Notes under the pieces: generated by a model | Databases searched by the model: none | What the model was told of the DNA's origin: nothing | What the model saw: only the letters and a program-made list of their open reading frames with translations | Shown: positions 23,133 through 49,097 of the stretch, piece by piece | Layout of the letters: each line of letters starts with the position of its first letter | How positions within the stretch are numbered: the first letter of the stretch is position 1 | Program-made: the position numbers and the translations under genes | Source: Oxalobacteraceae bacterium | GTDB lineage: Bacteria; Pseudomonadota; Gammaproteobacteria; Burkholderiales; Burkholderiaceae_D | NCBI GenBank assembly: GCA_027490465.1 | Contig: JAIXXZ010000100.1 | Coordinates: 1-59,955, forward strand | DNA: 59,955 nucleotides | Direction of reading: 5' to 3'

Positions 23133-24647
23133 CTACGGCGATTTGGCACTGGAAAGTTCCAGCCACGCGACGAAACGTCTGGCCATTTCGCGATAGCCCG
23201 CAGGCGTGAGATGTATCAGGTCATTGGCCATCCAGGGTGGCGATCGCTTCATCAAGGCATAAGCACCACCCATCTCGCGCATCACGACCGACATATCCCA
23301 CACCATGCATTGATATTCGTCGCCAAGTTCCCGCTGAATTGCTGCTGCCTGAGCGTGCCGCTGAGGAAAAGTCTGCAGATCGTAATGGGTAGTGACCTGC
23401 GTCTTGTTGACGGTCTTGCGTTTGCCGGCTGAGACCTTGACGATCTTTTTGACGTAAAACCGGGTCACCCGATCTCCGGGCGTGATCAGAACGCACGCAG
23501 CTTGCGGCAATGTGGCACGCATGGTGATCAGCGTCTGACGATAATCCTGGCGATAACGCTCCGGATTCCAGCTTTTGCCAGTGACATCATTGGTACCGTA
23601 GGCGAGTACTACCGCATCATAAGGACGCTCGGATACCGCCGCCTTGAACAACTCGGGCTCGACCCCCCGCCAGTAATTACCGGCAGCACCCGCAATACCA
23701 AAATTATCCAGCACCGCACCCTGATGATCTTCTGCGAACAGGCCAAGCAGCGTCACTGTCTTTGTTTCATTCATACGCAGCTCGATACGAGAGATTGGCA
23801 TTGCGGCCTTGATCTCGACCACGCCGATCGCATGAGAGCCCTGGGTGTCGAGCGTTCCGAGTTTTTCACCATCGACAATCACGTCGAAGGTACCACCTTC
23901 GGGTTGCCGCAGGAAATGCAAAGCCAATTGATGGGCACGGTATTTGGCATGCGTGGACCGCACATCAATTTCGAGAGCTGCATGCGGTGTATGGGCTGTC
24001 ATCGCATACAAGCCCAGACCAGAGATAATCTTTGGCGAGCCGGCCGTTCTGGGGGGCAGTTCCTCGCGCCATTCACCGGTTCGACAAAAAGCGCGAATAG
24101 GTAGATTCAACCCCGGACGACCATACAGCAGATTGATATGACCGGCGCCACCAACGCCATAACGGTCCTGCAGCGCCTGTCGGACATCGGCAGTGAAAAA
24201 TTCGGCTGCCATGTGACTGCCGCCCCAAATACCGACGCGCACGACACGCTGATGCGACGCGCCAGACAATGTAGCGTGGAATTTTTTTATCCACTCCGAT
24301 TTCGGCATATTACGACGCAGTTCTTCGGCGCTGGGTGGCGCAAGCGCCTTTTTAAGCATCGCCGCTTCCTCTTCTTCACTCAGCGGGATGATTTCCTCTT
24401 CGCTGCCTGCAGGTACCGGATCTTGTTTTTGATTATTGCCCTGCGAAGGCGTGGGGCGACGCTCTGGCGATTTTCTCCGTTGCGGCGTCGTGCACTTCAG
24501 CGCCTCCATGTCTTTGCCGCCTGCGACGCTAAATATCTGATGCAAAGCCTGCGATGTGGCCTCGACCGGCGCTGTCTCTGCGGATGCGACGACGGCTGGC
24601 AGCAGCGCCAGCACCAGAAGCAAACGACAGTCTGTTTTTTTTGTCAT
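23133..24647 (-). CDS. Exported SGNH/GDSL-type hydrolase 2 of the MBOAT operon (GDS reads GGS)
   Basis: This 504-residue protein has a signal peptide (RLLLVLALLPAVVASA), a Pro/Glu-rich linker to about 130, then an SGNH domain. Block I is VRVGIWGGSHMAAEF (Ser144), with Gly where the paralogue at 32729 has Asp (WGDSH). Block III is VVLAYGTNDVTG, and block V is NDLIHLTPAGYREMA with the catalytic Asp and His. A beta-sandwich-like insert lies between blocks I and III. Its start overlaps the previous stop by one base (TAATG), so translation is coupled to SGNH1. Partners of MBOAT proteins in this family transfer or remove acetyl groups on glycans in the periplasm. The target here is unknown. Confidence 0.85.
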   Translation of the reverse strand: MTKKTDCRLLLVLALLPAVVASAETAPVEATSQALHQIFSVAGGKDMEALKCTTPQRRKSPERRPTPSQGNNQKQDPVPAGSEEEIIPLSEEEEAAMLKKALAPPSAEELRRNMPKSEWIKKFHATLSGASHQRVVRVGIWGGSHMAAEFFTADVRQALQDRYGVGGAGHINLLYGRPGLNLPIRAFCRTGEWREELPPRTAGSPKIISGLGLYAMTAHTPHAALEIDVRSTHAKYRAHQLALHFLRQPEGGTFDVIVDGEKLGTLDTQGSHAIGVVEIKAAMPISRIELRMNETKTVTLLGLFAEDHQGAVLDNFGIAGAAGNYWRGVEPELFKAAVSERPYDAVVLAYGTNDVTGKSWNPERYRQDYRQTLITMRATLPQAACVLITPGDRVTRFYVKKIVKVSAGKRKTVNKTQVTTHYDLQTFPQRHAQAAAIQRELGDEYQCMVWDMSVVMREMGGAYALMKRSPPWMANDLIHLTPAGYREMARRFVAWLELSSAKSP

Positions 24648-26083
24648 TACTGGCCTGCCTCGAAACGCAGATAGCTCTGCAATAGCGCATCGGAGAAGGC
24701 GTTGCCGATACGATGTAATCCTTTTTCGGTCAGATGATTCAGATCAGTCCAGGCCAGCCCTTGCGACAGCCAGCGTGCGAACGAATCCCGACCGCCCATG
24801 AACTGCCAGGTATTCCAGAAAGCACATCCGTTATCCAGACTGACCTGACGCTGATACGTCACCATGCGCTCGATCAGCGGGCGCGAGGTGATGCGACCAT
24901 CATCATTGAGCACGCCCTGATCCAGTGGACTCATCACCAGACAAGCCGCTTTAGGGGCACCCTGACGCAATACATTGAGCGCTGCAGCAAAGCCTTCTTT
25001 GTAGACACGTCCTTCGGGTGTCATCAAGCCGCCATGGTTGGTTTCATTCCCGCCCAACATGATGACGATCAAGTCCGGATTGCGGACGGCAGTCTGCTGG
25101 GCAAGATGCGCCGGATCGAACTGACGTATAGAACCACTGGCAATGCCGACGACTGCCGTGGTTTCCCAGGTGATGCCGTGGGCTGCCTCGACGACAGCAC
25201 CATAGACTTCAAGATTGGGCTCGGCCACCGTGATCTTCACACGCGTGACGGGATCGGCACTCTCGATCACCCATTGATCGAAAGTCTGATGCTCAACACG
25301 TTTGACCGAATCGATTTTCTTGCCATTGACTTCGAATGCAGGCTTGTCGTCGCGTCGGGATTTTTGCGCATACAGCTCGACATGCTCGCCCATAGACAAC
25401 TTGGGCTGGGGAGATGAAATAATGATCTGACTTTTTGCATTCGGTTTTGCGACAACACCACCAAGTCCGTAACGTCCATTGTTGCCACCGAAAAGAATAG
25501 TTTGTACATTCCATTCACCAGTTCGATCGACACGCACGTCATCGCGACGCATCCAACGTGGGTCCATACCAGCGACAAAAAATCCCGGACCACCATTGCC
25601 AAACCTGGCCTGCATGCGCGTACGTACGGTCTTGGCAATACCATCACCTGCGAGTGTCGAATCGCCGTAGTGAAGCACTCTGACAGGGCCCTGCTTGCGC
25701 TCTTTGAGCGCTCGGAAAAATTCGCTCAAATGCTCTTCGCCGTACAAATGTGAAACGCTGGAATTTTTCGTGACGGGTACGGTGGCGGTCGCTGCCGCTG
25801 CCTTTTTGGCGTCGACTCGCTTTGGAGCGTTGCCTTGCGGCGGCTCACCAGTGCTTTGCCCTGTTGGCTTCGTGCTTGCAGCGCTTGGTTCTTCTGCAAC
25901 CGGCTCTTGAAGTATCGGTGCTGAGGTGGTGTCGGAATGCGGCCAGAACACGGGGCCCAAGGCGCGGGTGGGTCGAAATGACGCCATGTCAGCAATGTAG
26001 TAGCTGGGCAGCACGGTAGCCAGCGCCACAGCCAGTATGGTGAGCACATGCGCAGGGGGAGTCAGTCGGTCATTTGCAAGCAT
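24647..26083 (-). CDS. Membrane-anchored SGNH/GDSL-type hydrolase 1 of the MBOAT operon
   Basis: From ATG 26083, two bases after the MBOAT stop, the product is 478 residues. An upstream start would overlap the MBOAT gene. The N-terminus has one membrane helix (HVLTILAVALATVLPSYYIA) and a Pro/Thr/Lys-rich periplasmic linker to about 105. The SGNH domain follows: RVLHYGDSTLAGDGIAKTV (GDS Ser), the GNGGPGFF segment, IVIMLGGNETNHGG (Asn block) and TDLNHLTEKGLHRI (Asp, His). All catalytic residues are present. The arrangement resembles PatB/AlgJ-type partners of MBOAT proteins, which move acetyl groups from the membrane carrier to a glycan outside the inner membrane. Confidence 0.88.
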   Translation of the reverse strand: MLANDRLTPPAHVLTILAVALATVLPSYYIADMASFRPTRALGPVFWPHSDTTSAPILQEPVAEEPSAASTKPTGQSTGEPPQGNAPKRVDAKKAAAATATVPVTKNSSVSHLYGEEHLSEFFRALKERKQGPVRVLHYGDSTLAGDGIAKTVRTRMQARFGNGGPGFFVAGMDPRWMRRDDVRVDRTGEWNVQTILFGGNNGRYGLGGVVAKPNAKSQIIISSPQPKLSMGEHVELYAQKSRRDDKPAFEVNGKKIDSVKRVEHQTFDQWVIESADPVTRVKITVAEPNLEVYGAVVEAAHGITWETTAVVGIASGSIRQFDPAHLAQQTAVRNPDLIVIMLGGNETNHGGLMTPEGRVYKEGFAAALNVLRQGAPKAACLVMSPLDQGVLNDDGRITSRPLIERMVTYQRQVSLDNGCAFWNTWQFMGGRDSFARWLSQGLAWTDLNHLTEKGLHRIGNAFSDALLQSYLRFEAGQ

Positions 26084-26085
26084 CG

Positions 26086-27483
26086 TCAGAAATTCCTGTA
26101 AATGAAATTCAGCGCCTGTCCACCGGACAGATAAGCACCTGTCAGCAAGACCACACCAAAGATAACGCCCTGAATGAAAGGATGCTGCCGCTTGAACGCA
26201 GTGCGCGTCGTTTCCGTCACCCACACAGGTGCAAAGCAGGACAACATACCCGCGATCAGACAAACCCAGAACATGATTGCAAAGCGCGGTGCGCCTGATA
26301 ATTCGGATTCAAGCATATAGCCCGTAAAAACTGCGGCATCATCAAGCGTTGGCGTCTTGAACAAGATACGGGCAACCACGACAAAACTGAATGTAGCCAA
26401 CCATCCGGCAATCTGTATGCGCTTCTCATATGTGACTGTCCATGACTGCCACCAGCCCTGAAAGCGCAACCAGCGATTCACGCAGACTGCCGTGCCATGC
26501 AGCAGACCGTACAACAAAAAATTGAGTGTGACCCCATGCCATACAGCCAGCAGCAAAATCGAGATCATCACATTGCGATAAATTTTCCATCGCTCGACCC
26601 TGCTGCCACCAAGAGGGTAGTACACGTATTGGGTAACCCAGGCAGAGAGGCTCATGTGCCAGCGACGCCAGTATTCCGCAATTGACGAAGCGTGATACGG
26701 ACGATTGAAATTCTCGGGCAGGCGCAGACCCAGCAGGCGCGCAGAACCAATGACGACGTCGGTGTAACCTGAAAAATCCAGATAGATCTGGAAGGTGTAG
26801 GCCAGCAGTGCGATCTGAATTTCCAGTGATGAGAAGCTACCCGGATCCGTGAATATCGGATCAACACCCGCTTTGGCGATCACATCCGACAAAATGAGTT
26901 TCTTGACCAGCCCACGGACGATGCGCCACATACCTTCACGAATATCGTCGCTGCTGACATCACGTCTGCTGACAAGCTGATTGACGAAATCCGATGCACG
27001 TAAAATCGGTCCCGCAGCAAGGTGCGGGAAAAAACTCATGTACACCACATAGTGCGGCCAGGCACCGGTATCCAACTGGCGGCGGTAGCGATCGACCGTG
27101 TAGCTCACTGCCTGAAAGGTCATGACCGACAAGCCCAGTGGCGGCAACCACCCTGTGAGGCCCTGCGCTTCCAGCCAGGCTGGATCCACCAGCCCCCACA
27201 AACCCGCTTTGATAAATTTGTGCAGCAGCAGCGGACTGACTTCCAGTGCTATCAATAATCCCAATGCTTTTCGGTTACCCGGGCAATAACGCTGAATCAG
27301 AACCGCGCCCCACCAGGTCACAACCAGCAGCAACAGAATAAGCAGGAAGTTGGTCCAACCGTCCGACCACAAGGTGATCACACCACCCAGCAGCAACAGG
27401 CAGAGGCGTGTGATCTGAGATTGACTGAGCAGATATAGCGCAACCAGTATTGGCAGTGCGAGCAGGTAATTGGAGGAAACCAA
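26086..27483 (-). CDS. MBOAT-family membrane O-acyltransferase (AlgI/PatA-like)
   Basis: This 465-residue polytopic protein has the MBOAT hallmarks: FFPHLAAGPILRASDFV, FQIYLDFSGYTDVVIGSARL with GLRLPENFNRPYHASSIAEYWRRWH, and AVWHGVTLNFLLYGLLHG, whose His is the invariant catalytic residue. Such proteins (AlgI, PatA/PacA, DltB) pass an acyl group from a cytoplasmic donor across the inner membrane to an SGNH partner. Two SGNH proteins follow at once (2-base gap, then a 1-base overlap), and an exported protein of unknown function precedes it by 12 bases. The acceptor glycan is not known; there is no alginate or teichoic-acid gene in the window. Confidence 0.93.
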   Translation of the reverse strand: MVSSNYLLALPILVALYLLSQSQITRLCLLLLGGVITLWSDGWTNFLLILLLLVVTWWGAVLIQRYCPGNRKALGLLIALEVSPLLLHKFIKAGLWGLVDPAWLEAQGLTGWLPPLGLSVMTFQAVSYTVDRYRRQLDTGAWPHYVVYMSFFPHLAAGPILRASDFVNQLVSRRDVSSDDIREGMWRIVRGLVKKLILSDVIAKAGVDPIFTDPGSFSSLEIQIALLAYTFQIYLDFSGYTDVVIGSARLLGLRLPENFNRPYHASSIAEYWRRWHMSLSAWVTQYVYYPLGGSRVERWKIYRNVMISILLLAVWHGVTLNFLLYGLLHGTAVCVNRWLRFQGWWQSWTVTYEKRIQIAGWLATFSFVVVARILFKTPTLDDAAVFTGYMLESELSGAPRFAIMFWVCLIAGMLSCFAPVWVTETTRTAFKRQHPFIQGVIFGVVLLTGAYLSGGQALNFIYRNF

Positions 27484-27495
27484 ACCGGGCCAGCC

Positions 27496-28590
27496 TTATT
27501 TTTTGCGGGTTGCCGTAATGACCGCGTAGGTACCGTCTTTGTAATACCCCATGCGGAAATTCAGCGGGCGGATATCTTTGCGATCTTCAAAGGCTTTTGC
27601 CAGATCCCGCTGATACGCATTGAAGGCATGATGCGCGCGCTCGAATTTTCCGTAGAGCTGGGTACTGAAGCCGGCATCCAGTTTGGTGTATTGAATGCCG
27701 GTTTCATCCTGAACGATGAAGGGCGCATTGCTGATCACGGCATCCGCCGTCATCGAGAAAGTCTTGTTTTGTGGAAGATGCGATGCGGCTTTGAACAGGG
27801 TCGGATTGGAAGCCAGTTGCTTGATCAGGGTGTAATTTTTGGGCGATGCCTGGAAGCCTTTGTTGGACAAATCAATACGCAGATAATCCAGCGTTACCGG
27901 CCGGCCATTCTTGGTGAGTTTGAAACGTACCGATGTCCACTCTTTGGTAGAGATTGGTAATTCGATGATCTCGCCCTGCTCATTCCAGTCGACAGGAACG
28001 ACGTCGTTGATCACGAAACGCTGTAGCTGCAATGTCGTCGCAAGAAACGTGCTGGCGCCGATACGCACCTTGTTCTGGTACACATACTGATCCAGATATT
28101 CGGTGACGAAAAATCCATCACGTCCGTAGTTTTCCCACGCCGCAGTCAGTACATTCAAGGTCTGATCCAGCACAATCGGCTCAAGTGTGCGCAGATCAAT
28201 CGGCTGGTAGGCACGCTGCATGGCCACCATGACATAGCGCCGTGCATTCGGATACATCTGATAAACAGTAGAAAAATCGGGACCGGAAAAAGGGTAAAAA
28301 ACAGTTTCTCGGAAGGCGGGCACTTCTTTCTGTGACCAGCCCATCATGGGATTGGCGATTTTGGTGACGTACTGGTTCCAGTTTGAACGCACCTGGTTGG
28401 CGTAGCGTTTCCACTGCTCGGTGTTCATTTGTGGAGGTAATCCTGATGGCAATGCAGCACCGGATAAGAGCGTGGCAGTTTCCTGAATACTCACTGGCAG
28501 ACTCATTGGATTCGTATCCGCTGCCTGAGCAGCATGCGTGAAAATCAATGCTGCGATAAAGCCAATCGTGCTGTTCGAGAATACTTTCAT
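27496..28590 (-). CDS. Exported protein of unknown function, first gene of the MBOAT-SGNH operon
   Basis: This 364-residue protein has a signal peptide (FSNSTIGFIAALIFTHAAQA). I do not recognise a named family. Notable segments are FYPFSGPDFSTVYQMYPNAR with RYVMVAMQRAYQPID, YLDQYVYQNKVRIGASTFLA, SVRFKLTKNGRPVTLDYLRI and TFSMTADAVISNAPFIVQDE. The FSGPDF...FPNA-like motif seems to be the most conserved-looking part. The protein is probably periplasmic and could bind the glycan acceptor or present it to the acyltransferase, by analogy with AlgX/AlgK-type helpers, but this is only inferred from gene order: its stop is 12 bases from the MBOAT start. Confidence 0.7.
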   Translation of the reverse strand: MKVFSNSTIGFIAALIFTHAAQAADTNPMSLPVSIQETATLLSGAALPSGLPPQMNTEQWKRYANQVRSNWNQYVTKIANPMMGWSQKEVPAFRETVFYPFSGPDFSTVYQMYPNARRYVMVAMQRAYQPIDLRTLEPIVLDQTLNVLTAAWENYGRDGFFVTEYLDQYVYQNKVRIGASTFLATTLQLQRFVINDVVPVDWNEQGEIIELPISTKEWTSVRFKLTKNGRPVTLDYLRIDLSNKGFQASPKNYTLIKQLASNPTLFKAASHLPQNKTFSMTADAVISNAPFIVQDETGIQYTKLDAGFSTQLYGKFERAHHAFNAYQRDLAKAFEDRKDIRPLNFRMGYYKDGTYAVITATRKK

Positions 28591-28892
28591 TTTGATGTTC
28601 TGGTATGGATTCAGAGGGGAGCGGGATGACTCTGCGATAGCGAAACAGCATGCTTGGCTATACGCTTAAATGCGCAGAAAACGGCCGGGATTGGCGCATT
28701 TTCCGCACCCAACGCGATTTTCAACGGTGTTTGATCAGTGCGCTGTTTTATTTTGATTGTACCAACAGACCCAACACAAGGTTCTGATTCTTATTCCATT
28801 AACCGAGCTCCACCATTATCTCGATTGCCATATTGGCAATTAATAATGCAAAAGCAGATTTGTACGGATACTATTTGTCCGGGAAGACCGTA
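28591..28892. other. Intergenic region upstream of the MBOAT operon
   Basis: Probable promoter region of the leftward MBOAT-SGNH operon; no credible gene. It holds a perfect dyad ATTGCCA-TAT-TGGCAAT (28824-28840), a possible operator, and a weaker pairing AAATGCGC/GCGCATTT near 28670-28700. Element copy F fills the rest of the spacer to the thrH side. Confidence 0.35.
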
Positions 28893-29031
28893 CCAGGGAA
28901 GCGCTAATCAAATAAACCCAGAAACTCTTATGGCAAGCTTGATCGCACCGAGCCCTTGATTTGGCGGGTCCCCGCGTCGCACAGCAGCGCGGGCTCGCCA
29001 TAAAACGGAGATTGATTCAGCCTCGCCCTGG
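28893..29031 (+). repeat. MITE-like interspersed element, copy F
   Basis: Forward copy from CAGGGAAGCGCTAATCAAAT to GATTCAGCCTCGCCCTG, with core GGTCCCCGCGTCGCACAGCA and GCTCGCCATAAAACGG. It lies between two divergent genes, just upstream of thrH. Confidence 0.85.
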
Positions 29032-29076
29032 GTGTGAGCTCACTCCCGGAACTTTCAAGACGAATTGGCACAGCCT

Positions 29077-29694
29077 ATGAAACAAACGATAGTGACATTG
29101 GATATGGAAGGTGTTCTGACACCGGAAATCTGGATTGCCGTGGCAGAGAAAACCGGCATAGAGGCGTTGCGCCGAACGACGCGCGATGAGCCGGATTACG
29201 ACAAGCTGATGCGCAGCCGCCTCGAGATACTCGATCAGCACGGGCTGAGTCTCTCTGCGATACAGGCAGTCATTGGCACACTGGAGCCCTTGCCCGGGGC
29301 CAGAGACTTTCTGGATAGCTTGCGCTCGAAAGCCCAGCTGCTGATTCTGTCGGATACCTTTGAACAATTCGCTGCGCCGTTTATGCGGCAACTTGGGATG
29401 CCCACCCTTCTTTGTCACACACTGCTGATCAGAGATGACAGAATTGTTGACTACCGGCTCCGCATTCCAGATCAAAAGCGTGCCGCTGTACTGGCGCTTC
29501 AGCAACTCAATTACCGGGTGATTGCCGCCGGCGATTCTTTTAATGACACCAGCATGCTGGGAACCGCAGATGCGGGATTCCTGTTCCACGCGCCCGCCAA
29601 TGTCAAAGCCCAGTTCCCGCAATTCACTGCGGTTGACGATTATGACGACTTGCTCGCGCTAATCGAAAACGCGATGGAGGCGGTGATCGAATAA
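29077..29694 (+). CDS. thrH: HAD-family phosphoserine phosphatase/homoserine phosphotransferase ThrH
   Basis: From ATG 29077 the product is 205 residues, the usual ThrH length; an in-frame TTG 12 bases earlier is unlikely. It matches ThrH of Pseudomonas over its length: VTLDMEGVLTPEIWIAVAEK (HAD motif I, DxE type), LEPLPGARDFLDSL, LLILSDTFEQFAAPFMRQLG (motif II Ser), PTLLCHTL, and YRVIAAGDSFNDTSMLGTAD (motif IV), then GFLFHAPANVKAQFPQF. ThrH dephosphorylates phosphoserine and can pass the phosphate to homoserine. The last codons and TAA coincide with the left end of element copy G (GAG GCG GTG ATC GAA TAA), as in the MFS gene. Confidence 0.93.
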   Translation: MKQTIVTLDMEGVLTPEIWIAVAEKTGIEALRRTTRDEPDYDKLMRSRLEILDQHGLSLSAIQAVIGTLEPLPGARDFLDSLRSKAQLLILSDTFEQFAAPFMRQLGMPTLLCHTLLIRDDRIVDYRLRIPDQKRAAVLALQQLNYRVIAAGDSFNDTSMLGTADAGFLFHAPANVKAQFPQFTAVDDYDDLLALIENAMEAVIE

Positions 29695-29807
29695 AACCGG
29701 AAAGGTGTGTAGCTGAATAAATTATTCCCAGCCCTCGATTTTGCTGGTCCCCGCGCCGAACAGCTGCACTGGCTCGCCATAGAACCTGGATTCATTCAAG
29801 GTATTCC
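29673..29807 (+). repeat. MITE-like interspersed element, copy G (left end within thrH)
   Basis: Diverged forward copy: AATAAAACCGGAAAGG, then CCCTCGATTTTGCTGGTCCC, CGCGCCGAACAGCTGCACTG and GCTCGCCATAGAACCTGG, ending ATTCATTCAAGGTATTCC. The left terminal repeat (29677-29695) matches the consensus at 15 of 19 positions and lies inside the thrH reading frame. Confidence 0.7.
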
Positions 29808-29915
29808 GGTGTGCTGAACCTCGCTTGAATATCAATTTAGCAACAATGTTTTACGTTCAAATGCACGGGATCACAATCCTGTTTTAAATCTTTATAAAAA
29901 CTGGCGATTACTCCA

Positions 29916-29921
29916 TATAAT
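29916..29921 (+). promoter_or_regulatory. Candidate -10 box for the AT3-SGNH acyltransferase gene
   Basis: A perfect TATAAT lies in an AT-rich stretch 29 bases upstream of the GTG start at 29950. No good -35 hexamer is seen at the right distance, so this is a tentative call. Confidence 0.3.
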
Positions 29922-29949
29922 CAGCGGTCTGAATTTTCCGAGTATCGCT

Positions 29950-31821
29950 GTGGCGCACCAGCAGAAACATACTGACTATCTGCCTGGCCTGGAGGGCTTG
30001 CGTGCATTCGCGGTGCTCGCCGTCATTTTTTATCACCTCGATATTCCCGGTTTGTTTTCTTCGGGTTTTCTGGGCGTCGATATCTTTTTCACGGTCTCGG
30101 GCTTTCTTATTACCGCCCAGTTAATCCGGCAATTTCAAAAAGACGGCAAGATTGCCATCGGCAATTTTTATCTGAAACGAGCACGTCGATTATTTCCCGC
30201 GGTACTGGTCTTGCTTGTCTTCTGCGTCCTGGTGACCGAGTGGTTTGTCAGTGATGCTGCCTGGCGCACGCGCTCCGATTTACTACCTGCGCTTTTTTAT
30301 TTTTCGAACTGGTGGCAAATCTTTTCGGAACAGTCGTATTTCGAGATGTCCGGCCGCCCTGCTCTGTTGCAGCATCTTTGGTCGCTCGCCATCGAGGAAC
30401 AGTTCTACATCGTCTGGCCATTGCTGTTGCTGGTGATATTGCGTCACTTTCGCGAGCGCGGTGTTTTGTTCATTGCAGCTGCCCTCGCATTACTGAGCTC
30501 GGCTTGGATGATTTACCTGTCTGTTCGGTACGGCTATCCCCAGTCACAAGACCCCAGCCGTATTTATCTGGGAACAGATACCCACACCATGGGCTTGTTT
30601 ATGGGTGCGGCCCTGGCCGCTGCCTGGAATCCATGGCAGGCACATGCATCGCAGAGGACTCAAGTCGTGGGAGCCGCGACTGATTTTCTTGGCGTTATAT
30701 GCATCAGTGCTCTGCTATGGGCGATGCTGTTCATGACGGAATATGACCGCGCTTTGTATCAGGGTGGTTTTTTCTGGGTTTGCCTGTTCTCGATTGGCCT
30801 GGTATTCGCTGCTGCGCAAAAAGACAGTGCGCTATCCGCCTGGCTAAGTGTTCGCCCACTCGCCTGGCTGGGCCAGCGATCCTATGGATTGTATTTGTGG
30901 CACTGGCCTGTCTTTGCCCTGCTGCGCCCCGAATTCGAATTGTCCGATAACGCCTGGATACAGGCGGCAATACGTCTGACGCTCACGCTGATTTTGACAG
31001 AGCTTTCTTACCAGCTGATTGAAAATCCGGTGAGAACAGGCGACGTACTTCGATGGCCCGACCAAAAGCGCTATGGATTTTATTCCTTGTGCCTAGCCGG
31101 TATTGCCTCAGCAGTTTTGACGATACAAATACGTCCTGCACCAATTCAAAAGAACAATGCACTCACCAAATCGGTCGGTGATGAAGCGCCACAGGCCAGT
31201 GACTTGCCCCACGAGAACGAGCTCGCGGCTCATCAGATGCGTGCTGCCTGTATTCGCTCTGTATCGAACAAACATTCCATCAAGTCAAAACCACTCATCA
31301 CCGTGCTCGGCGATTCAGTATTACTGGGCGCAAGCGATCACCTGGCAAAGAAGGTAGAAGGTCTTGAGATTGATGCGGCGATCGGCCGTCAAGGCAAAGA
31401 TGGATTGAACCGTCTCCGGGAGCTAAAAGAAAGAAATGAACTGGCCGACATCGTCATCGTTCATCTCGGGACGAATGGTTATTTGTATGAATCGCAAGTC
31501 CGGGAAGTGATGACACTACTCTCGAACGTGCGCCAGGTCGTTTTCATCAATGTCAAAGCGCCCCGCCGCTGGGAAAAATCGAATAACGAGTTACTCAAAA
31601 ACATGAGTAAGGAATTTCCAAATGTCAAATTGATTGACTGGCGCGTTATCGGACAAAGTCATAAGGAATACTTCGGCAAAGACCATATTCATCTGACAAA
31701 AAAAGGGGTGCGTGCCATGACAACAGAAATTTTGCGCGTATCCGGTCTTCCAGTGCCAACGAATAATGAGATCAACAAAAATTTGAAGGTGGTACCTTGC
31801 AGCATCAGCAGCAAACGATGA
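29950..31821 (+). CDS. AT3-SGNH acyltransferase (OafA/YrhL-like)
   Basis: This 623-residue protein has a GTG start. The N-terminal acyltransferase-3 part (about 1-370) has ten or more membrane helices and the family signatures YLPGLEGLRAFAVLAVIFYH, FLGVDIFFTVSGFLIT, KRARRLFPAVLVLL and HLWSLAIEEQFYIVWPLLLL. After a last helix and linker, a periplasmic SGNH domain (about 450-610) has ITVLGDSVLLGASDH (Ser), VIVHLGTNGYLYE (Asn) and KDHIHLTKKGVRAM (Asp, His). OafA-type enzymes take acetyl from a cytoplasmic donor and pass it to O-antigen, peptidoglycan (OatA) or other glycans, with the SGNH domain doing the final transfer. Two further SGNH genes follow on the same strand. Confidence 0.93.
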   Translation: MAHQQKHTDYLPGLEGLRAFAVLAVIFYHLDIPGLFSSGFLGVDIFFTVSGFLITAQLIRQFQKDGKIAIGNFYLKRARRLFPAVLVLLVFCVLVTEWFVSDAAWRTRSDLLPALFYFSNWWQIFSEQSYFEMSGRPALLQHLWSLAIEEQFYIVWPLLLLVILRHFRERGVLFIAAALALLSSAWMIYLSVRYGYPQSQDPSRIYLGTDTHTMGLFMGAALAAAWNPWQAHASQRTQVVGAATDFLGVICISALLWAMLFMTEYDRALYQGGFFWVCLFSIGLVFAAAQKDSALSAWLSVRPLAWLGQRSYGLYLWHWPVFALLRPEFELSDNAWIQAAIRLTLTLILTELSYQLIENPVRTGDVLRWPDQKRYGFYSLCLAGIASAVLTIQIRPAPIQKNNALTKSVGDEAPQASDLPHENELAAHQMRAACIRSVSNKHSIKSKPLITVLGDSVLLGASDHLAKKVEGLEIDAAIGRQGKDGLNRLRELKERNELADIVIVHLGTNGYLYESQVREVMTLLSNVRQVVFINVKAPRRWEKSNNELLKNMSKEFPNVKLIDWRVIGQSHKEYFGKDHIHLTKKGVRAMTTEILRVSGLPVPTNNEINKNLKVVPCSISSKR

Positions 31822-31873
31822 CAAGCGCATCCTCACCCTGCAAACAAATACGAGACACCTCGCGTGTGATGTG

Positions 31874-32674
31874 ATGCCATTGCCAAAAAATAAATACTGG
31901 ATGATTGCTCTGGTGATGGCCTTGTTGCTGTCGCTGCTTGCTTACCTGCTGCTGCGTGTGACTCCTGCCACCCATTCGGAACCAGAAGCTGTTCCCGTTG
32001 CGCCGAAGTCAGAGGCTCAGACCCCACCCCCAAAACCAAGCAGGCCAAGCCTTCAACGCATACTCTTTGCGGGTGATTCGATGATGCAGGGGATAGCACC
32101 GATCGTCATGCGCCAACTGAAAGCGTCGCATCCCGAATGGCTATTACGTAATGAGAGTCAGCAAAGTACAGGATTGAGCATCAAACGTCAGCTGGATTGG
32201 GTTCAAAAAATAAAGGCTGAGATTGTTGAGCATAAGCTGACCACCGTAGCCGTTTTTCTGGGGCCGAATGATCCTTGGGACATCTACGAAAAAAAACAAG
32301 TGATTCGTTTTCCATCGCCGGAATGGGAGGCACGCTATAGCGAAAGAGTCGCCGAGATCTGCGAATTTGCAAAGGAAAAAAAAGTACATCTGATTTGGAT
32401 AGGTCTGCCAACGATGAAAGAGGCTCGCGCACACCGTGGCGCTACTGTCCAAAATCCGATTTTTCGAAATAACATGGAAAAATATGGCTTTGACTTTATC
32501 TCGACCGAAGCACTGATTGGCCGTCTGGATCAGCCTTACATTCGCTTCATGACAGATCCAGAAGGAAAAAAAATCAATCTTCGTGCTGATGACGGGATTC
32601 ATTTCAGCCCACAGGGCTTGCAGAGAATCGCTGCAGCGCTTTTAAAATCCATCGATCCCCCCCTTGATAATTGA
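31874..32674 (+). CDS. Membrane-anchored SGNH hydrolase
   Basis: From ATG 31874 (a GTG directly before it is also possible) the product is 266 residues. One membrane helix (WMIALVMALLLSLLAYLLLR) and a Pro-rich linker precede an SGNH domain: RILFAGDSMMQGIAPIVMRQ (Ser), VAVFLGPNDPWDIY (Asn) and ADDGIHFSPQGLQRIA (Asp, His). The GDSMMQG...GPNDPW combination is that of the DUF459-like SGNH group. It is 50 bases downstream of the AT3-SGNH gene and 55 before the next SGNH gene, so the three probably form one transcript and act together on a periplasmic substrate. Confidence 0.87.
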   Translation: MPLPKNKYWMIALVMALLLSLLAYLLLRVTPATHSEPEAVPVAPKSEAQTPPPKPSRPSLQRILFAGDSMMQGIAPIVMRQLKASHPEWLLRNESQQSTGLSIKRQLDWVQKIKAEIVEHKLTTVAVFLGPNDPWDIYEKKQVIRFPSPEWEARYSERVAEICEFAKEKKVHLIWIGLPTMKEARAHRGATVQNPIFRNNMEKYGFDFISTEALIGRLDQPYIRFMTDPEGKKINLRADDGIHFSPQGLQRIAAALLKSIDPPLDN

Positions 32675-32728
32675 GATGACAAACTTTACACGCGTACCCA
32701 TGGGATCCATGCAGCAGGCCTGTCACCT

Positions 32729-34276
32729 ATGCTGATGCAATCCCTGATCGAAATAGCCAAAGCCACGGCAACTCGCTGTACTGGCTTGCTGCTGCTGGCA
32801 GTGGTGTGTACTCCGCTGAATGCTCTTGCGATTGAGACGGGAAGATATTTCATTTTTCAGCAAGGCTCGGTGACCGGTGATCTACAGTGCCCACTCAAGA
32901 GCAATGTCAATCCGACGCCCTTGCAAGAAAACAAAAACACCTTTGAACCACCCGATGCCGAGGAACTTGATGAACTGGGCATACTGACCACAGGACTCGG
33001 AAAAGCCGTCGTACAAACACCAGGCACTACGCAGAGTGCATCGGTGGTTAAACCAACGGGCGGCACACGCTCACAAGCGATACGCGTCGGCATCTGGGGT
33101 GACAGTCATTTGGCGGCAGGATCCTTCTCTTCCGAGCTGAAGCGAATCTTTCTGTCACAGGGCCTGAAAACCCGAACGCAATTTATTCCATTCACGATGG
33201 GCAGAGCGGGCGTGAACCTGCCACTACGCCGACACTGCTTGGACAAGTGGAAATCGGAACTCGCTTACACAGCCCGCAATGCCGCAATACCTACCGGCGT
33301 GGGACTGAATGTGCTGCAGGGTGAACCCGGCGCCTATCTGTGGTTTGATTTGCGTAATGAATCCGGCGAAGCTGATGTCAACAGCGTCGAGCTGTTTTTT
33401 CATCAGGCACCTGAAAATGGCAGTATTTCAATCAGTGTCGATGATGGCCCGGAAAACAAGATCAATCTGGATGGTGCCCAGAGCTTTGGCGCTTTGACTA
33501 TTGTCGGCAATCATCCGATCTCCATACTCAAAATTCGCGTAAACGAGAAGCCAGTCCAGCTCAATGGCATGTTTTTGAATTATCGGCAGGCTCCGGTCGC
33601 CACGCTGGATTCGTTTGGCATACCCGGGGCAACAGTTCGGGCATGGCAGCAGTTGGATCCCGGGTATTTTGGGGAGTATTTCAGAGACAGAAAATACAAT
33701 CTCGTCATGCTGGAATATGGCACCAATGAAGGTAATGCGACACTCTTCGATGCAGCGGCTTATGCAAAAACGCTGGATCAATCGCTGAAAAATTTGAGGC
33801 AAGTGTTCCCGTTATCGGAATGCCTTTTGATTGCTCCGGGTGATCGAGGTATTCTCGTACCACGGTCGCGCAAAGTTAAAAAGCTTAACAAAAGCAAAAA
33901 CGCAAGCGCACAAAAAGACAAAGGCAGACATAAAGTCAATTCGAACAGTCGTTCAAATCATGAATACTCGGCTGTGGACTTGCTGAAATTTTCTGCGATC
34001 CACGACAAGATATCGACGATTCAAAAAGAGGTAGGAGCACGCTATTCATGCAAAGTCTGGAGTATGCAGACGGCCATGGGTGGGCAAGGTTCTGCCTACG
34101 CGTGGCTACTGGCCAATCCGTCACTGATGTCAAAAGACCTGACGCATTTCACAGTCAAAGGCTATCAACGTCTTGCTCAGGAGCTGGCGGCGAGTCTTGG
34201 ATGGAAAAACGAGACAAGCTGGACAGGAACAACCACGTCCGAGCCGCCAGTCGGGGATGAGGGCACGAATAAATAA
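32729..34276 (+). CDS. Exported SGNH/GDSL-type hydrolase, paralogue of the MBOAT-operon protein at 23133
   Basis: This 515-residue protein has an N-terminal signal (RCTGLLLLAVVCTPLNALA), a linker, and an SGNH domain: IRVGIWGDSHLAAGSF (Ser126 in an intact GDS), LVMLEYGTNEGNAT (Asn block) and SKDLTHFTVKGYQRLA (Asp, His). It shares layout and distinctive segments with the 23133 protein (GIWG-SH-AA, APGDR/TPGDR followed by a Lys-rich stretch, QKEVGARYSCKVW against QRELGDEYQCMVW), so the two arose by duplication. A very Lys-rich insert (about 385-410) is specific to this copy. It lies at the end of the AT3-SGNH transcript and is followed by element copy H. Confidence 0.87.
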   Translation: MLMQSLIEIAKATATRCTGLLLLAVVCTPLNALAIETGRYFIFQQGSVTGDLQCPLKSNVNPTPLQENKNTFEPPDAEELDELGILTTGLGKAVVQTPGTTQSASVVKPTGGTRSQAIRVGIWGDSHLAAGSFSSELKRIFLSQGLKTRTQFIPFTMGRAGVNLPLRRHCLDKWKSELAYTARNAAIPTGVGLNVLQGEPGAYLWFDLRNESGEADVNSVELFFHQAPENGSISISVDDGPENKINLDGAQSFGALTIVGNHPISILKIRVNEKPVQLNGMFLNYRQAPVATLDSFGIPGATVRAWQQLDPGYFGEYFRDRKYNLVMLEYGTNEGNATLFDAAAYAKTLDQSLKNLRQVFPLSECLLIAPGDRGILVPRSRKVKKLNKSKNASAQKDKGRHKVNSNSRSNHEYSAVDLLKFSAIHDKISTIQKEVGARYSCKVWSMQTAMGGQGSAYAWLLANPSLMSKDLTHFTVKGYQRLAQELAASLGWKNETSWTGTTTSEPPVGDEGTNK

Positions 34277-42506: not shown

Positions 42507-43907
42507 TCAAGACCGCGTATTATTGCCTAAAACTTGAGAAGACGATTTTGCCCGCATCAGCGGCGCCATGACCGCCAGAGTCAGGACCAGCAACACCAGT
42601 TCAAGGGCGTAAACGCTCATATAGCCAAAGGCGGGACCACCGATCGCCGCAGCCACATCCCGAAGTATCCCGCCCAAGGCAACGGCGACACCGGCGCCCG
42701 ATGCCTGCACTGCACCCCAGGCACCGAGCGCAAGTCCGCTTTGGCTCTTGGGCGCAAGATTCATGGTGGCCGTCAGCGTCCCGTGGCCGAACAGCCCTGC
42801 GCCCAGTCCGATCAACAGCGTCCCCAAGGCAAATAGCAACGGCATCTGTAGTGGCGCGGAAAAGATCACCAGCATGAAAGCCGGTAGCCCGACAGCAGCG
42901 CCGACACCGGCGAGCCTCAGGGGGTCTGCGCCCCGGCTCAGGACGCGCGAAGCAAATCCAAAACCCAGCAGACCGCCAACAGCCAGCGCCGCCGTCAGTA
43001 AGGTGGTTGTGCCCACGCTCAGGCCGAGGATCTCCCCGCCATAGGGTTCAAGCAGCACGTCCTCCATGGTGAATGCCATCGTGCCAAGACCAATGGCGAT
43101 CAGACGCCGCACGGCATGCTTGCCTTCACAAAAACTTTGCCAGGACAGACGGAAATCGGGGGCCATGGCGGGCGCACCCGCGCGATCTCTGCTGCGCGAC
43201 TCCTGCTTCCACAGCGCGACCACATTCAGCACCAAGGTCATGATGGCTGCGCCCTGAATCACCCGTATCAGACGTCCGGGACTGAACTCGGCGAGCGCGG
43301 CACCAAAAATAATGGCGCTGACGATCATGCCCAGCAAGAGCATCACGTACATCAGCCCCACAACTTTGGGGCGAGATTCGGGGCTTGCGAGATCCGTCGC
43401 CAGCGCCAGACCGACGGTCTGCGTAGTGTGCAGACCCGCACCCACGAGCAGAAAGGCAATGCCAGCCGCCATATGCCCGACCCAGGCGGGCGCATGCGAC
43501 GCATGACCCATGCCGGACAACACCAGGAGCGCAAACGGCATGATGGCCAGTCCGCCAAACTGCACCATCGTCCCCATCCAGAGATAAGGTACGCGGCGCC
43601 ATCCAAGCGCAGAGCGATGATGATCCGAGCGAAAACCAATGATCGCGCGAAAAGGCGCAAAGATCAGAGGCAAAGAAATCATGATGCCGACCAGTGCCGC
43701 CGGCACTTTGAGCTCGACGATCATGACGCGAGTGAGAGTACCGATCATCAGCACCAGTGCCATGCCGACGGATACTTGAAACAGCGATAGTCTGAGCAAG
43801 CGCGATAGCGGAAGATCCGGTGTCGCGGCATCAGCGAAAGGAAGGAATCTGGAGCCGATTCGGGCCCAGCTACGTCGAATTTCCTGTTGAAGGGTAGGTG
43901 TCTGCAT
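42507..43907 (-). CDS. pucC: PucC-family LH2 assembly protein (BCD/MFS fold)
   Basis: This 466-residue protein has twelve hydrophobic segments. The PucC/LhaA/Bch2 signatures are LLRLSLFQVSVGMALVLMIG, LKVPAALVGIMISLPLIFAP, GFRSDHHRSALGWRRVPYLW with MGTMVQFGGLAIMPFALLVL, and LFGHGTLTATMNLAPKSQSG. PucC is needed to assemble bacteriochlorophyll into the LH2 rings in the intracytoplasmic membrane. It follows pucBA on the same strand, separated by 99 bases that hold a perfect 30-base palindrome. Confidence 0.94.
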   Translation of the reverse strand: MQTPTLQQEIRRSWARIGSRFLPFADAATPDLPLSRLLRLSLFQVSVGMALVLMIGTLTRVMIVELKVPAALVGIMISLPLIFAPFRAIIGFRSDHHRSALGWRRVPYLWMGTMVQFGGLAIMPFALLVLSGMGHASHAPAWVGHMAAGIAFLLVGAGLHTTQTVGLALATDLASPESRPKVVGLMYVMLLLGMIVSAIIFGAALAEFSPGRLIRVIQGAAIMTLVLNVVALWKQESRSRDRAGAPAMAPDFRLSWQSFCEGKHAVRRLIAIGLGTMAFTMEDVLLEPYGGEILGLSVGTTTLLTAALAVGGLLGFGFASRVLSRGADPLRLAGVGAAVGLPAFMLVIFSAPLQMPLLFALGTLLIGLGAGLFGHGTLTATMNLAPKSQSGLALGAWGAVQASGAGVAVALGGILRDVAAAIGGPAFGYMSVYALELVLLVLTLAVMAPLMRAKSSSQVLGNNTRS

Positions 43908-43961
43908 GTCGTTCCCGACGTTTCCCGACGCCAGTTACCCGTTCAGGAAGTGGGTTCAGCC

Positions 43962-43991
43962 ATGGTTCGGAACCTGCAGGTTCCGAACCAT
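43962..43991. other. Perfect 30-base palindrome between pucA and pucC
   Basis: ATGGTTCGGAACC-TGCA-GGTTCCGAACCAT is self-complementary over its whole length. No T run follows in the leftward direction (GGCTGAACC), so it looks like an intercistronic stem-loop that stabilises the upstream pucBA message, as known for puf and puc operons of purple bacteria, rather than a full terminator. Confidence 0.8.
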
Positions 43992-44006
43992 GAATCCCGA
44001 ACAAAA

Positions 44007-44231
44007 CTACTTTCGCGCAGGATCTTGCGCAACCAGCATCGCCACGGGTTGTACCGTGTCTGACTGAATTGCCGATACCTGTGCTGCGCTGCCATTGAGG
44101 AATTTCTTCACCCAGGTTGTGTTCAGCGTCAGCGACAAATGCACTGCGAACGAACCAACAGCAACAGCGCCGATGATGATGGGAATACCCACCGACGGCT
44201 TAACCACACACCACATTTTTCCGTAAATCAT
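44007..44231 (-). CDS. pucA: Light-harvesting LH2 alpha chain, B800-820 (LH3) type residues
   Basis: This 74-residue protein lines up without gaps with LH2 alpha chains: IYGKMWCVVKPSVGIPIII (N-terminus), the membrane helix with BChl ligand His31 (GAVAVGSFAVHLSLTLNTTW) and Trp40. The two residues that hydrogen-bond the B850 acetyl groups in LH2 (Tyr44, Trp/Tyr45) are Phe44-Leu45 here (TTWVKKFLNG), as in the low-light B800-820 complex of Rhodoblastus acidophilus 7050. A 27-residue C-terminal extension (from SAAQVSAIQSD) follows, as also known in Rubrivivax. It is co-transcribed with pucB, 18 bases upstream. Confidence 0.96.
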   Translation of the reverse strand: MIYGKMWCVVKPSVGIPIIIGAVAVGSFAVHLSLTLNTTWVKKFLNGSAAQVSAIQSDTVQPVAMLVAQDPARK

Positions 44232-44249: not shown

Positions 44250-44402
44250 TTAGTGAAGCCAAGGTGAATAGATATACGCGAGCAGATGGGCGAATGCGGC
44301 AATCATCCCGAACAGCTGCGTGCCCTGAATCAGATGGCGATGAATCTCTTCAGACTCTGCCTCTGTCAGGCCGGTAGGCCAAACCTTGTCTCTGTCAGAC
44401 AT
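44250..44402 (-). CDS. pucB: Light-harvesting LH2 beta chain
   Basis: The 50-residue frame begins MSDRDKVWPTGLTEAESEEI and ends YSPWLH. It has the LH2 beta pattern GLTEAE...IHRHLIQGTQLFG...AHLLA...PWLH. His39 in AAFAHLL is the B850 ligand and His21, eighteen residues earlier, matches the His12/His30 pair of Rhodoblastus acidophilus. An AAGGAG ribosome site lies seven bases upstream. It is the first gene of the operon and has two TGT-N12-ACA sites about 100-140 bases upstream. Confidence 0.96.
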   Translation of the reverse strand: MSDRDKVWPTGLTEAESEEIHRHLIQGTQLFGMIAAFAHLLAYIYSPWLH

Positions 44403-44500: not shown

Positions 44501-44518
44501 TGTAAACCGTGATTTACA
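44501..44518. promoter_or_regulatory. PpsR/CrtJ-type site 1 upstream of pucBA
   Basis: TGT-AAACCGTGATTT-ACA is an exact TGT-N12-ACA palindrome, with extended TGTAAA...TTTACA symmetry. In purple bacteria this is the binding sequence of the redox- and light-controlled repressor PpsR/CrtJ. It lies 99 bases upstream of the pucB start, 8 bases from a second site. Confidence 0.85.
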
Positions 44519-44526
44519 CTTTTAAT

Positions 44527-44544
44527 TGTCACTGAATCTTGACA
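44527..44544. promoter_or_regulatory. PpsR/CrtJ-type site 2 upstream of pucBA
   Basis: TGT-CACTGAATCTTG-ACA is a second exact TGT-N12-ACA site, spaced 8 bases from site 1, the arrangement used for cooperative repressor binding. The remaining spacer to 44720 holds nothing recognisable. Confidence 0.82.
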
Positions 44545-47861: not shown

Positions 47862-49097
47862 ATGCAAGGCATTCATCTCACTGCAGATTTGTCCGGCTGC
47901 CGAAACAACCTGAAACTGATGTCCGACGAGTCGGGTCTGCGCCAAGCCTGCCTGAACTTGGTGAGCAGCTGCGGCCTGACCGTCGTCGGCGATACCTTTG
48001 TTGCATTTCCCGGGATTGGTGACTCCCCCGGCGGTGTGACGGGCACAGTACTGCTGGCCGAGTCGCATCTGGCCATTCATACCTGGCCAGAACAATCTGC
48101 GGTCACGCTCGATGTCTATGTATGCAATTTTTCGACAGATAACAGCAAAAAAGCGTCCCAGCTTCTGGAGGCAATGACCGCCTTGTTCGACCCTGCCGAA
48201 GCCAGCTATCAGCAGTTGCAGCGCGGTGAAATCGGTGCAGCGCACAGCGCTCAAACCATGGGCCGGGAAAAGCTCAATGAGCACAGTGCTTACGCATACC
48301 AGCTGGGGCCGGTGCTGTATCGCGAACAATCTCCCTACCAGCTCATCGAGGTACATGACTCACCGCAGTTCGGTCGCTTGTTCCGTCTGGATGGCGACTA
48401 CATGACCTCGGAAAAAGAAGAATTTTTTTATCACGAAGCACTGGTTCATCCGGCTGCCGCCAGCCATGGCAAGGTTGCGAACGTTCTGATACTTGGCGGT
48501 GGTGATGGTGGTGCGGCCGAGGAACTGCTGAAATACCCCAGTGTTGAACGTGTCGTCATTGCAGAGCTCGACGAAGTCGTCATCCGTGTCGCGCGCGAGT
48601 ATTTTCAGAATATTCATCATGGCGCGCTGGATGACCCACGCGTGGAAGTACGCATTGGCGATGGTTTGGCGTATGTCCGCGACACCGCTGAACGTTTCGA
48701 TCTCGTGCTGCTGGATCTGACTGATCCCGATACACCTGCATCAGCTTTATATACCGCTGAATTTTTTTCCTCCGTCAAAAAACTGCTCAATCCGGGTGGT
48801 GCGATGGTGCTGCATACTGCCTCACCCATTTTCCGACCTGATGTTGTGTCCATGCTGTACCAGCGGCTAAAGAATGATTTCAACATCGTCGCACCGATGG
48901 GTCTTTACATTCCACTCTATGGTGCTTACTGGTCATTCGCGGTTTGCAGCAATGATCTTGATCCTCGAAAAGCCGATGCCACCCAGATCGCCGGAATCAT
49001 CACCTCCGCCGGGCTGACCGATCTTAATTACTACAATCCCGCGACCCATCAAGGGTTGTTTGCCATACCAGGCTATTTTCAAAAGCTACTGGACTAG
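47862..49097 (+). CDS. Fused S-adenosylmethionine decarboxylase-spermidine synthase
   Basis: This 411-residue protein joins two enzymes. Residues 1-125 are a class-1b SpeD: LLAESHLAIHTWPEQSAVTL contains the self-cleavage site Glu67/Ser68 (pyruvoyl formation), His73, and DVYVC gives Cys88, all aligned with Ser63, His68 and Cys83 of the Thermotoga enzyme. Residues about 155-411 are a SpeE-type aminopropyltransferase: LYREQSPYQLIEVHDS, YHEALVHPA, VLILGGGDGGAAEELL, LDLTDPDTPA and GAYWSFAVCS. Together they make spermidine from putrescine and decarboxylated AdoMet in one chain. Such fusions are known. The upstream gene is divergent. Confidence 0.93.
   Translation: MQGIHLTADLSGCRNNLKLMSDESGLRQACLNLVSSCGLTVVGDTFVAFPGIGDSPGGVTGTVLLAESHLAIHTWPEQSAVTLDVYVCNFSTDNSKKASQLLEAMTALFDPAEASYQQLQRGEIGAAHSAQTMGREKLNEHSAYAYQLGPVLYREQSPYQLIEVHDSPQFGRLFRLDGDYMTSEKEEFFYHEALVHPAAASHGKVANVLILGGGDGGAAEELLKYPSVERVVIAELDEVVIRVAREYFQNIHHGALDDPRVEVRIGDGLAYVRDTAERFDLVLLDLTDPDTPASALYTAEFFSSVKKLLNPGGAMVLHTASPIFRPDVVSMLYQRLKNDFNIVAPMGLYIPLYGAYWSFAVCSNDLDPRKADATQIAGIITSAGLTDLNYYNPATHQGLFAIPGYFQKLLD

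Follow-up and report, generated by a model that had tools for sequence, protein, structure and literature searches.

The window, by which we mean the whole 59,955-nucleotide stretch of contig JAIXXZ010000100.1 of Oxalobacteraceae bacterium (GCA_027490465.1), carries three antenna genes on its minus strand in the order pucB-pucA-pucC, all read in one direction. The pucA gene (44007..44231), recognized by its ORF, Pfam and a phmmer alignment, encodes an LH2-type alpha chain of 74 aa. Upstream of it lies pucB (44250..44402), which encodes an LH2-type beta chain of 50 aa by ORF, Pfam and alignment, and downstream lies pucC (42507..43907), which encodes an antenna assembly MFS protein of 466 aa (Pfam PUCC, 503.7 bits). 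The plus strand across 44007-44231 is interrupted by a stop, and the pucA ORF is that of the minus strand; the initial annotation had named no strand. Both small chains scored above the curated cut-off of 23 bits of Pfam PF00556 (PucA, 33.3 bits; PucB, 35.4 bits). Together with His31, Trp40 and the nearest solved chains, which are LH2 chains, this match places the product in the antenna complex alpha/beta family, LH2 type. None of the NCBIfam models scored above its cut-off with PucA, and PucB (44250-44402) was labelled as an LH1 beta subunit (pufB_517_ASD, 67.4 bits; cut-off 61). This LH1 label on an LH2 beta chain is a likely source of wrong automatic annotation.

Other parts of the window hold further genes. 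The segment 49508-53191 encodes a protein of 1227 residues in which 22 stretches match PF00353, the family of RTX calcium-binding repeats, and at 47862-49097 an S-adenosylmethionine decarboxylase domain is followed by a spermidine synthase domain in a single ORF. The region 23133-34276 contains an MBOAT acyltransferase and three proteins that match GDSL-type hydrolase families and is a possible O-acetylation locus.

Two TGTN12ACA boxes (44501-44518 and 44527-44544) are located upstream of pucB, 26 bp from start to start. By its form we take this motif to be a PpsR/CrtJ-type site and, since the genome also has a ppsR gene, we read the boxes as candidate PpsR/CrtJ sites. The PpsR-CrtJ protein is encoded on contig 28 (461.8 bits; cut-off 275.4); in 14 control genomes, the same model gave no match above the cut-off and eight below it. 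The motif is not enriched across the window (8 found versus 11.08 expected from shuffling, or ~0.05 per 283 positions). Among the 96 rows of our locus comparison that have 300 upstream bases, 83 carried at least one box upstream of pucB and 48 carried two or more, often spaced by 26 bases. Box-free rows comprised all six whose PucA begins with MNQ, MNN or MTN and 7 of the 90 that begin with Met-Ile-Tyr (MIY), including two MAGs titled Limnohabitans (L112 and L116). PpsR-CrtJ of the same genome would repress puc at the two upstream boxes. Between pucA and pucC, we found a perfect 32-base inverted repeat on the minus strand (43961..43992). The predicted RNA fold of this region (−49.3 kcal/mol versus a shuffle mean of −34.1; z −4.78) is consistent with a possible intercistronic hairpin. 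A strict perfect-stem test detected a stem of at least 9 in just 23 of 105 rows, and the hairpin was not upheld as a conserved feature.

In a phmmer search against PDB chains, residues 3-53 of PucA paired gap-free with residues 3-53 of 7ZE3_A (2.3e-15), which brings His31, Trp40 and Phe44 into register and sets Leu45 against Met45. The initial annotation had described a gap-free alignment with LH2 alpha chains at His31 and Trp40 and had read residues 44-45 as Phe-Leu; both statements were borne out, and the alignment does not shift the pair. The chain 7ZE3_A (PucD-LH2) ranked first with 59.3 bits, matches two to four were further Rps. palustris LH2 chains, and 1IJD_A (the LH3 of strain 7050) reached 44.0 bits. 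The key positions of PucA are Ser27, His31, Trp40, Val41, Phe44, Leu45 and Gly47, and a tail of 27 residues follows Gly47. This tail had been thought to set PucA apart from the alphaproteobacterial LH3; it is not a useful distinction, as tails range from 10 to 33 residues (median, 19) across 119 MIY sequences. Rps. palustris has four alpha chains in the PDB, with lengths of 59-66 aa. With Val, Phe and Leu at alpha41, alpha44 and alpha45, PucA is without a C3-acetyl donor at these three sites.

The number of such donors is tied to colour. In nine LH2 structures, two C3-acetyl hydrogen bonds go with absorption at ~850 nm, one with ~825 nm and none with ~800 nm (Qian et al. 2022, PMC9618040). The 7050 LH3 has one such bond to the alpha-bound BChl, donated by alpha-Tyr41 (PMC9618040 Table 1; PMC6988754), and PucD-LH2 has zero (PMC9618040 Table 1), with valine in place of Tyr41 according to a modelling paper (PMC6988754). 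The text of PMC9618040 once gives Met44/Phe45 for PucD and its figure legend gives Phe44/Met45; our alignment with 7ZE3_A confirms the latter order. By the hydrogen-bond rule, the donor-free Val41, Phe44 and Leu45 would make the window's complex resemble PucD-LH2 more than LH3. The initial annotation had proposed an LH3-type complex absorbing at about 820 nm. Its blue-shifted antenna of LH2 type stands, and the puc pair that encodes it is the only one found. The LH3 type at about 820 nm does not stand as worded: 7050 LH3 has Tyr41 where the window has Val, and position 41, which matters for LH3, had been overlooked. LH3 in the strict 7050 sense is ruled out by the absence of alpha-Tyr41.

A band at 820 nm is still possible. 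A true LH3-like B800-820/826 complex would result if the loss of donors at positions 44 and 45 alone set absorption at ~820-826 nm and residue 41 were irrelevant. An Rba. sphaeroides LH2 mutated to Phe44-Leu45 does absorb at 826 nm (PMC8775250; PMC9618040 mentions 77 K), which argues for a position nearer 820-826 nm; our alignment places Leu41 and Ser27 in its alpha chain. Rfx. antarcticus, with Phe-Phe, absorbs at 819 nm (PMC5374385), and the solved 'B-800/820' chain 9dwz_A carries Phe41, Phe44 and Gln45. However, the window's PucA lacks the hydrogen-bonded Tyr41 of 7050 LH3, its nearest solved chain is PucD-LH2, and two comparators sit nearer 813 nm: the solved chain 9lt4_A with Ser27, Phe41, Phe44 and Phe45, named 'B-800/814' (814 being taken from the molecule name), and Limnohabitans planktonicus, listed at 799 and 813 nm in a review table (PMC12654162). 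We therefore consider an LH3-like band possible but doubtful.

At the other end of the range, the complex could be LH4-like and B800-only as in PucD-LH2, so that a single peak at 800-806 nm would take in the B850-type band. Val41, Phe44 and the absence of a C3-acetyl donor are common to both chains. Against this, the window has Ser27 where PucD has Val27, the comparators that combine Ser27 with the absence of C3 donors absorb at 814 and 826 nm, and the spectrum of L. planktonicus has two peaks. Such a merged band appears unlikely to us. The reading we prefer is that the red band probably falls within 803-826 nm with no donor at positions 41, 44 or 45, a range that the two alternatives just described divide between them. 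The predicted peak is most likely at about 813 nm, with 820 nm possible. Because of Val41 and the donor-free residues, the expected colour would lie between LH3 and LH4 and outside 7050-type LH3.

In the proposed mechanism, alpha-His31 and beta-His0 of each alpha-beta pair would bind the two strongly coupled BChls, and the B800 BChl would sit at the alpha N-terminus near beta-His(−18), as family knowledge suggests. Because Val41, Phe44 and Leu45 cannot hydrogen-bond the C3-acetyl groups, these would be left without a side-chain bond at the three sites and the 850 nm band would move to the blue. A bond from the kept alpha-Ser27 to a C13-keto group may then hold the band at ~813 nm instead of 803 nm. 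Ser27 makes this bond in Rba. sphaeroides (PMC9618040, PMC8775250), and its role is a question left by Qian et al. 2022. Speaking against such a role, Ser27Ala alone left the B850 band in place in Rba. sphaeroides (PMC9618040, PMC8775250), and an MTN-type locus (L166) that combines Phe-Leu with Ala27 argues against a strict Ser27 rule. Pseudohaliea rubra absorbs at 804 and 821 nm (PMC12654162, PMC3679898), and a 2025 review states that the LH2 of most aerobic phototrophs deviates from 800-850 nm (PMC12654162).

The beta chain carries the B850 His0 and the His at −18, and has Gln at −10, a position occupied by Arg in five solved LH2 beta chains aligned with PucB. PucB also weakly matches beta chains of the entries 7O0U-7O0X (2e-05), which we take to be those of G. 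phototrophica. The pair might surround the core as a Gemmatimonas-like outer ring (LHh) rather than assemble into free LH2 rings, and a review speculates the same for Limnohabitans, whose peaks resemble those of G. phototrophica (PMC12654162). However, the G. phototrophica LHh derives genetically from LH1 according to the literature, a search with the window's alpha chain returned LH2 chains but no chain of 7O0U-7O0X at E ≤1, and the top seven beta matches are all LH2 chains. With no good sequence link in either chain, we rejected an LHh ring as highly improbable and retain an LH2-type complex.

The genome of the window (3.03 Mb, 115 contigs, 93.19% complete) gave four PF00556 matches, namely a pufBA pair on contig 28 and the pucBA pair of the window; puc and puf are thus on different contigs. 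We searched for further pucBA copies, a check that the initial annotation had suggested; in this assembly of 93% completeness, neither PF00556 nor a PucA search revealed another puc pair. A genome of the same genus that is 100% complete (G003) likewise has one puc and one puf pair only. We conclude that pucBAC is the sole peripheral LH2-type antenna detected in the genome, a conclusion that is supported although a draft assembly might miss a second pair. The LH1 chains translated from contig 28 keep the tryptophans that LH1 presumably uses for its own hydrogen bonds, so that a normal LH1 is expected. The antenna ring would pass energy downhill to this LH1. It would work like LH3 and LH4 as a blue-shifted accessory antenna, but would be the only LH2 instead of a version reserved for low light.

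Outside the genome, 13 pattern matches in viral contigs included no relative, and a DNA search of plasmids returned nine records, all of them pucC-like transporters (63.8-75.1% identity). A class-wide search with the PucA alignment matched 4 of 369 genomes; besides the genome of the window, these were G683 (4.2e-18) and two with weak matches. The G683 locus (L198) belongs to another family of the class and encodes an MNQ-type PucA with Phe-Phe at 44-45 and a beta chain with Arg at −10.

Within the genus, a puc pair was present in 17 of 20 other genomes, 16 of them with Phe-Leu and one (G006) with Tyr-Leu. One genome given as 100% complete (G013) had puf but puc was not found, and in two others (G005, G011) neither was found; these cases point to loss or gain of phototrophy within the genus. 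An order-wide draw gave PF00556 matches in 49 of 399 genomes. The 32 regions fetched from these matches yielded 27 full PucA, one broken PucA (L186, dropped) and four beta chains only. With the window, L035 and L036 added, all three being part of the draw as well, this made 30 loci, two of them from one genome (G331; L184 and L185). The broken copy, from G360, has an in-frame stop. Phe-Leu occurred at 25 of the 30 loci, in 21 cases with Val41 and in four with Phe41 (MNQ, MNN or MTN types); the other five comprised two Tyr-His and one each of Phe-Met, Tyr-Tyr and Phe-Tyr. The pair that the initial annotation had singled out is therefore the norm in this draw.

Similar results were obtained in the genus of L112, a MAG titled Limnohabitans sp., where 39 of 61 genomes had a PucA match. 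Of the 30 loci returned, 29 had Val41 Phe44-Leu45 and one had Ile41 Tyr44-Leu45. Phe-Leu was found in 109 of 119 distinct PucA coding sequences beginning with MIY, a set biased to the query because it includes a scan with the window's PucA. The counts of loci include genomes reached via two collections, and we give distinct coding sequences where possible. In the MIY set, Phe44 was encoded by TTC 72 times and by TTT 39 times, and Leu45 by six codons. Constant amino acids with varying codons at positions 44-45 are not due to chance and point to selection, although in conservation the two positions come only 24th and 22nd among 47 columns. In the genus of L134 (titled Rhodoferax ferrireducens), 5 of 60 genomes matched, and three of these loci (L239, L240, L241) combined Ala27 with Tyr-Tyr or Tyr-Phe. 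MIY sequences had Ala27 only where residue 44 is Tyr (2 of 119 distinct sequences). Like this freshwater-type betaproteobacterium, lake bacteria related to it often have an antenna of the same type, which is also encoded on a contig (L091) of the cultured Polynucleobacter kasalickyi VK13.

Besides the 119 distinct MIY sequences, seven others began with MNQ, MNN or MTN. At beta −10, all 154 MIY-type beta rows had Gln and all seven other rows had Arg, and the His at −18 was kept in all 161, the window included; the rows are related and partly duplicated, and these counts do not represent independent events. The B800 pocket thus differs between the types. In Rba. sphaeroides, a bond from beta Arg at −10 to the B800 acetyl group accounts for ~10 nm of red shift (PMC8775250, PMC6358721). 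The beta Gln may still donate such a bond, which would be in line with the peak of L. planktonicus at 799 nm. We found no paper naming an MIY/beta-Gln signature in a search whose coverage left most subscription journals outside.

We also built a PucC tree from 138 rows (105 different) by a quick method that left many open forks; it skipped six loci with a short PucC and holds one of the seven non-MIY rows. Mapped onto this tree, the label Val41 Phe-Leu requires at least eight changes, six of them forced by starred branches. Neighbours on the tree can differ at 44-45, as do L113 (Phe-Leu) versus L116 (Tyr-Leu) and L169 (Phe-Leu) versus L174 (Tyr-His). The PucC of L037, the only MNQ locus in the tree, with Tyr-Trp and from the window's family (G029), shares a starred branch (96) with three MIY rows. 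The tree does not make MIY a single lineage and, because L037 stands among MIY rows, we call MIY a type and not a clade. Exchange or mixing of pucBA and pucC between operons is a possible explanation. As the spectral argument does not depend on MIY monophyly, the PucC tree leaves its likelihood unchanged.

The best-known examples of blue-shifted LH2 are low-light alternatives in a few purple bacteria. In the window's genome, an LH2 predicted to be blue-shifted is the only one found, and Phe-Leu is the commonest pair in the order-wide draw (25 of 30). Taken together, these two observations suggest that reliance on a fixed blue-shifted antenna may be shared by many Burkholderiales. Natural relatives of the same type make the Ser27 question testable by spectroscopy. 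If our reading is true, relatives with Tyr-Leu, Tyr-His, Tyr-Phe and Tyr-Tyr at 44-45 form a natural replacement series and could show what Ser27 does without acetyl bonds. We put forward, tentatively, a third LH2 spectral design in freshwater Burkholderiales, in which a sole antenna without C3-acetyl bonds would be held at ~813 nm by Ser27 alone, the B800 pocket would be rebuilt around alpha Ile2-Tyr3 and beta Gln at −10, and the natural series at 44-45 would answer the Ser27 question.

Among known systems, the LH3 of Rhodoblastus acidophilus 7050 (1IJD) shares the LH2-type alpha register and Phe44-Leu45 in place of Tyr44-Trp45. It differs in Tyr41, which provides its one C3-acetyl hydrogen bond, in Ala27 and in an MNQ N-terminus, whereas the window has Val41, Ser27 and MIY. 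Strain 7050 produces this LH3 alongside LH2 when light or temperature is low (PMC5374385), whereas one puc pair was found in the window's genome. The PucD-LH2 of Rhodopseudomonas palustris (7ZE3), of LH4 type, is the best PDB match and shares Val41, Phe44 and the lack of a C3-acetyl donor, but has Val27, Met45, Gln3 and beta Arg at −10 where the window has Ser27, Leu45 and, in the beta chain, Gln. PucD-LH2 is encoded by one of five pucBA pairs in its genome and has a single peak at 803 nm (PMC9618040). Residue 27, Val in PucD, is Ser in the window and might donate a bond to a C13-keto group, as it does in Rba. sphaeroides.

The likeness to L. planktonicus (799/813 nm) is drawn via MAGs titled Limnohabitans (L078, L112, L116) and the genus of L112, which have the same alpha/beta chain type, and not via the species' own PucA. 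Its puc genes are reported inside the photosynthesis gene cluster (PMC12654162), whereas puc and puf of the window's genome are on separate contigs. The 'B-800/814' chain 9LT4 likewise has Ser27 and, with three Phe residues, lacks a donor at 41/44/45, but is distant in sequence (1.1e-06) and has an MNE N-terminus. Rhodoferax antarcticus is also a betaproteobacterium with a single blue-shifted puc operon, encoding an LH3 at 819 nm (PMC5374385); it differs in Phe-Phe at 44-45 and in the location of puc within the photosynthesis gene cluster. The B800 site of Rba. sphaeroides LH2 shares the beta His at −18 with the window but not the Arg at −10, where the window has Gln.
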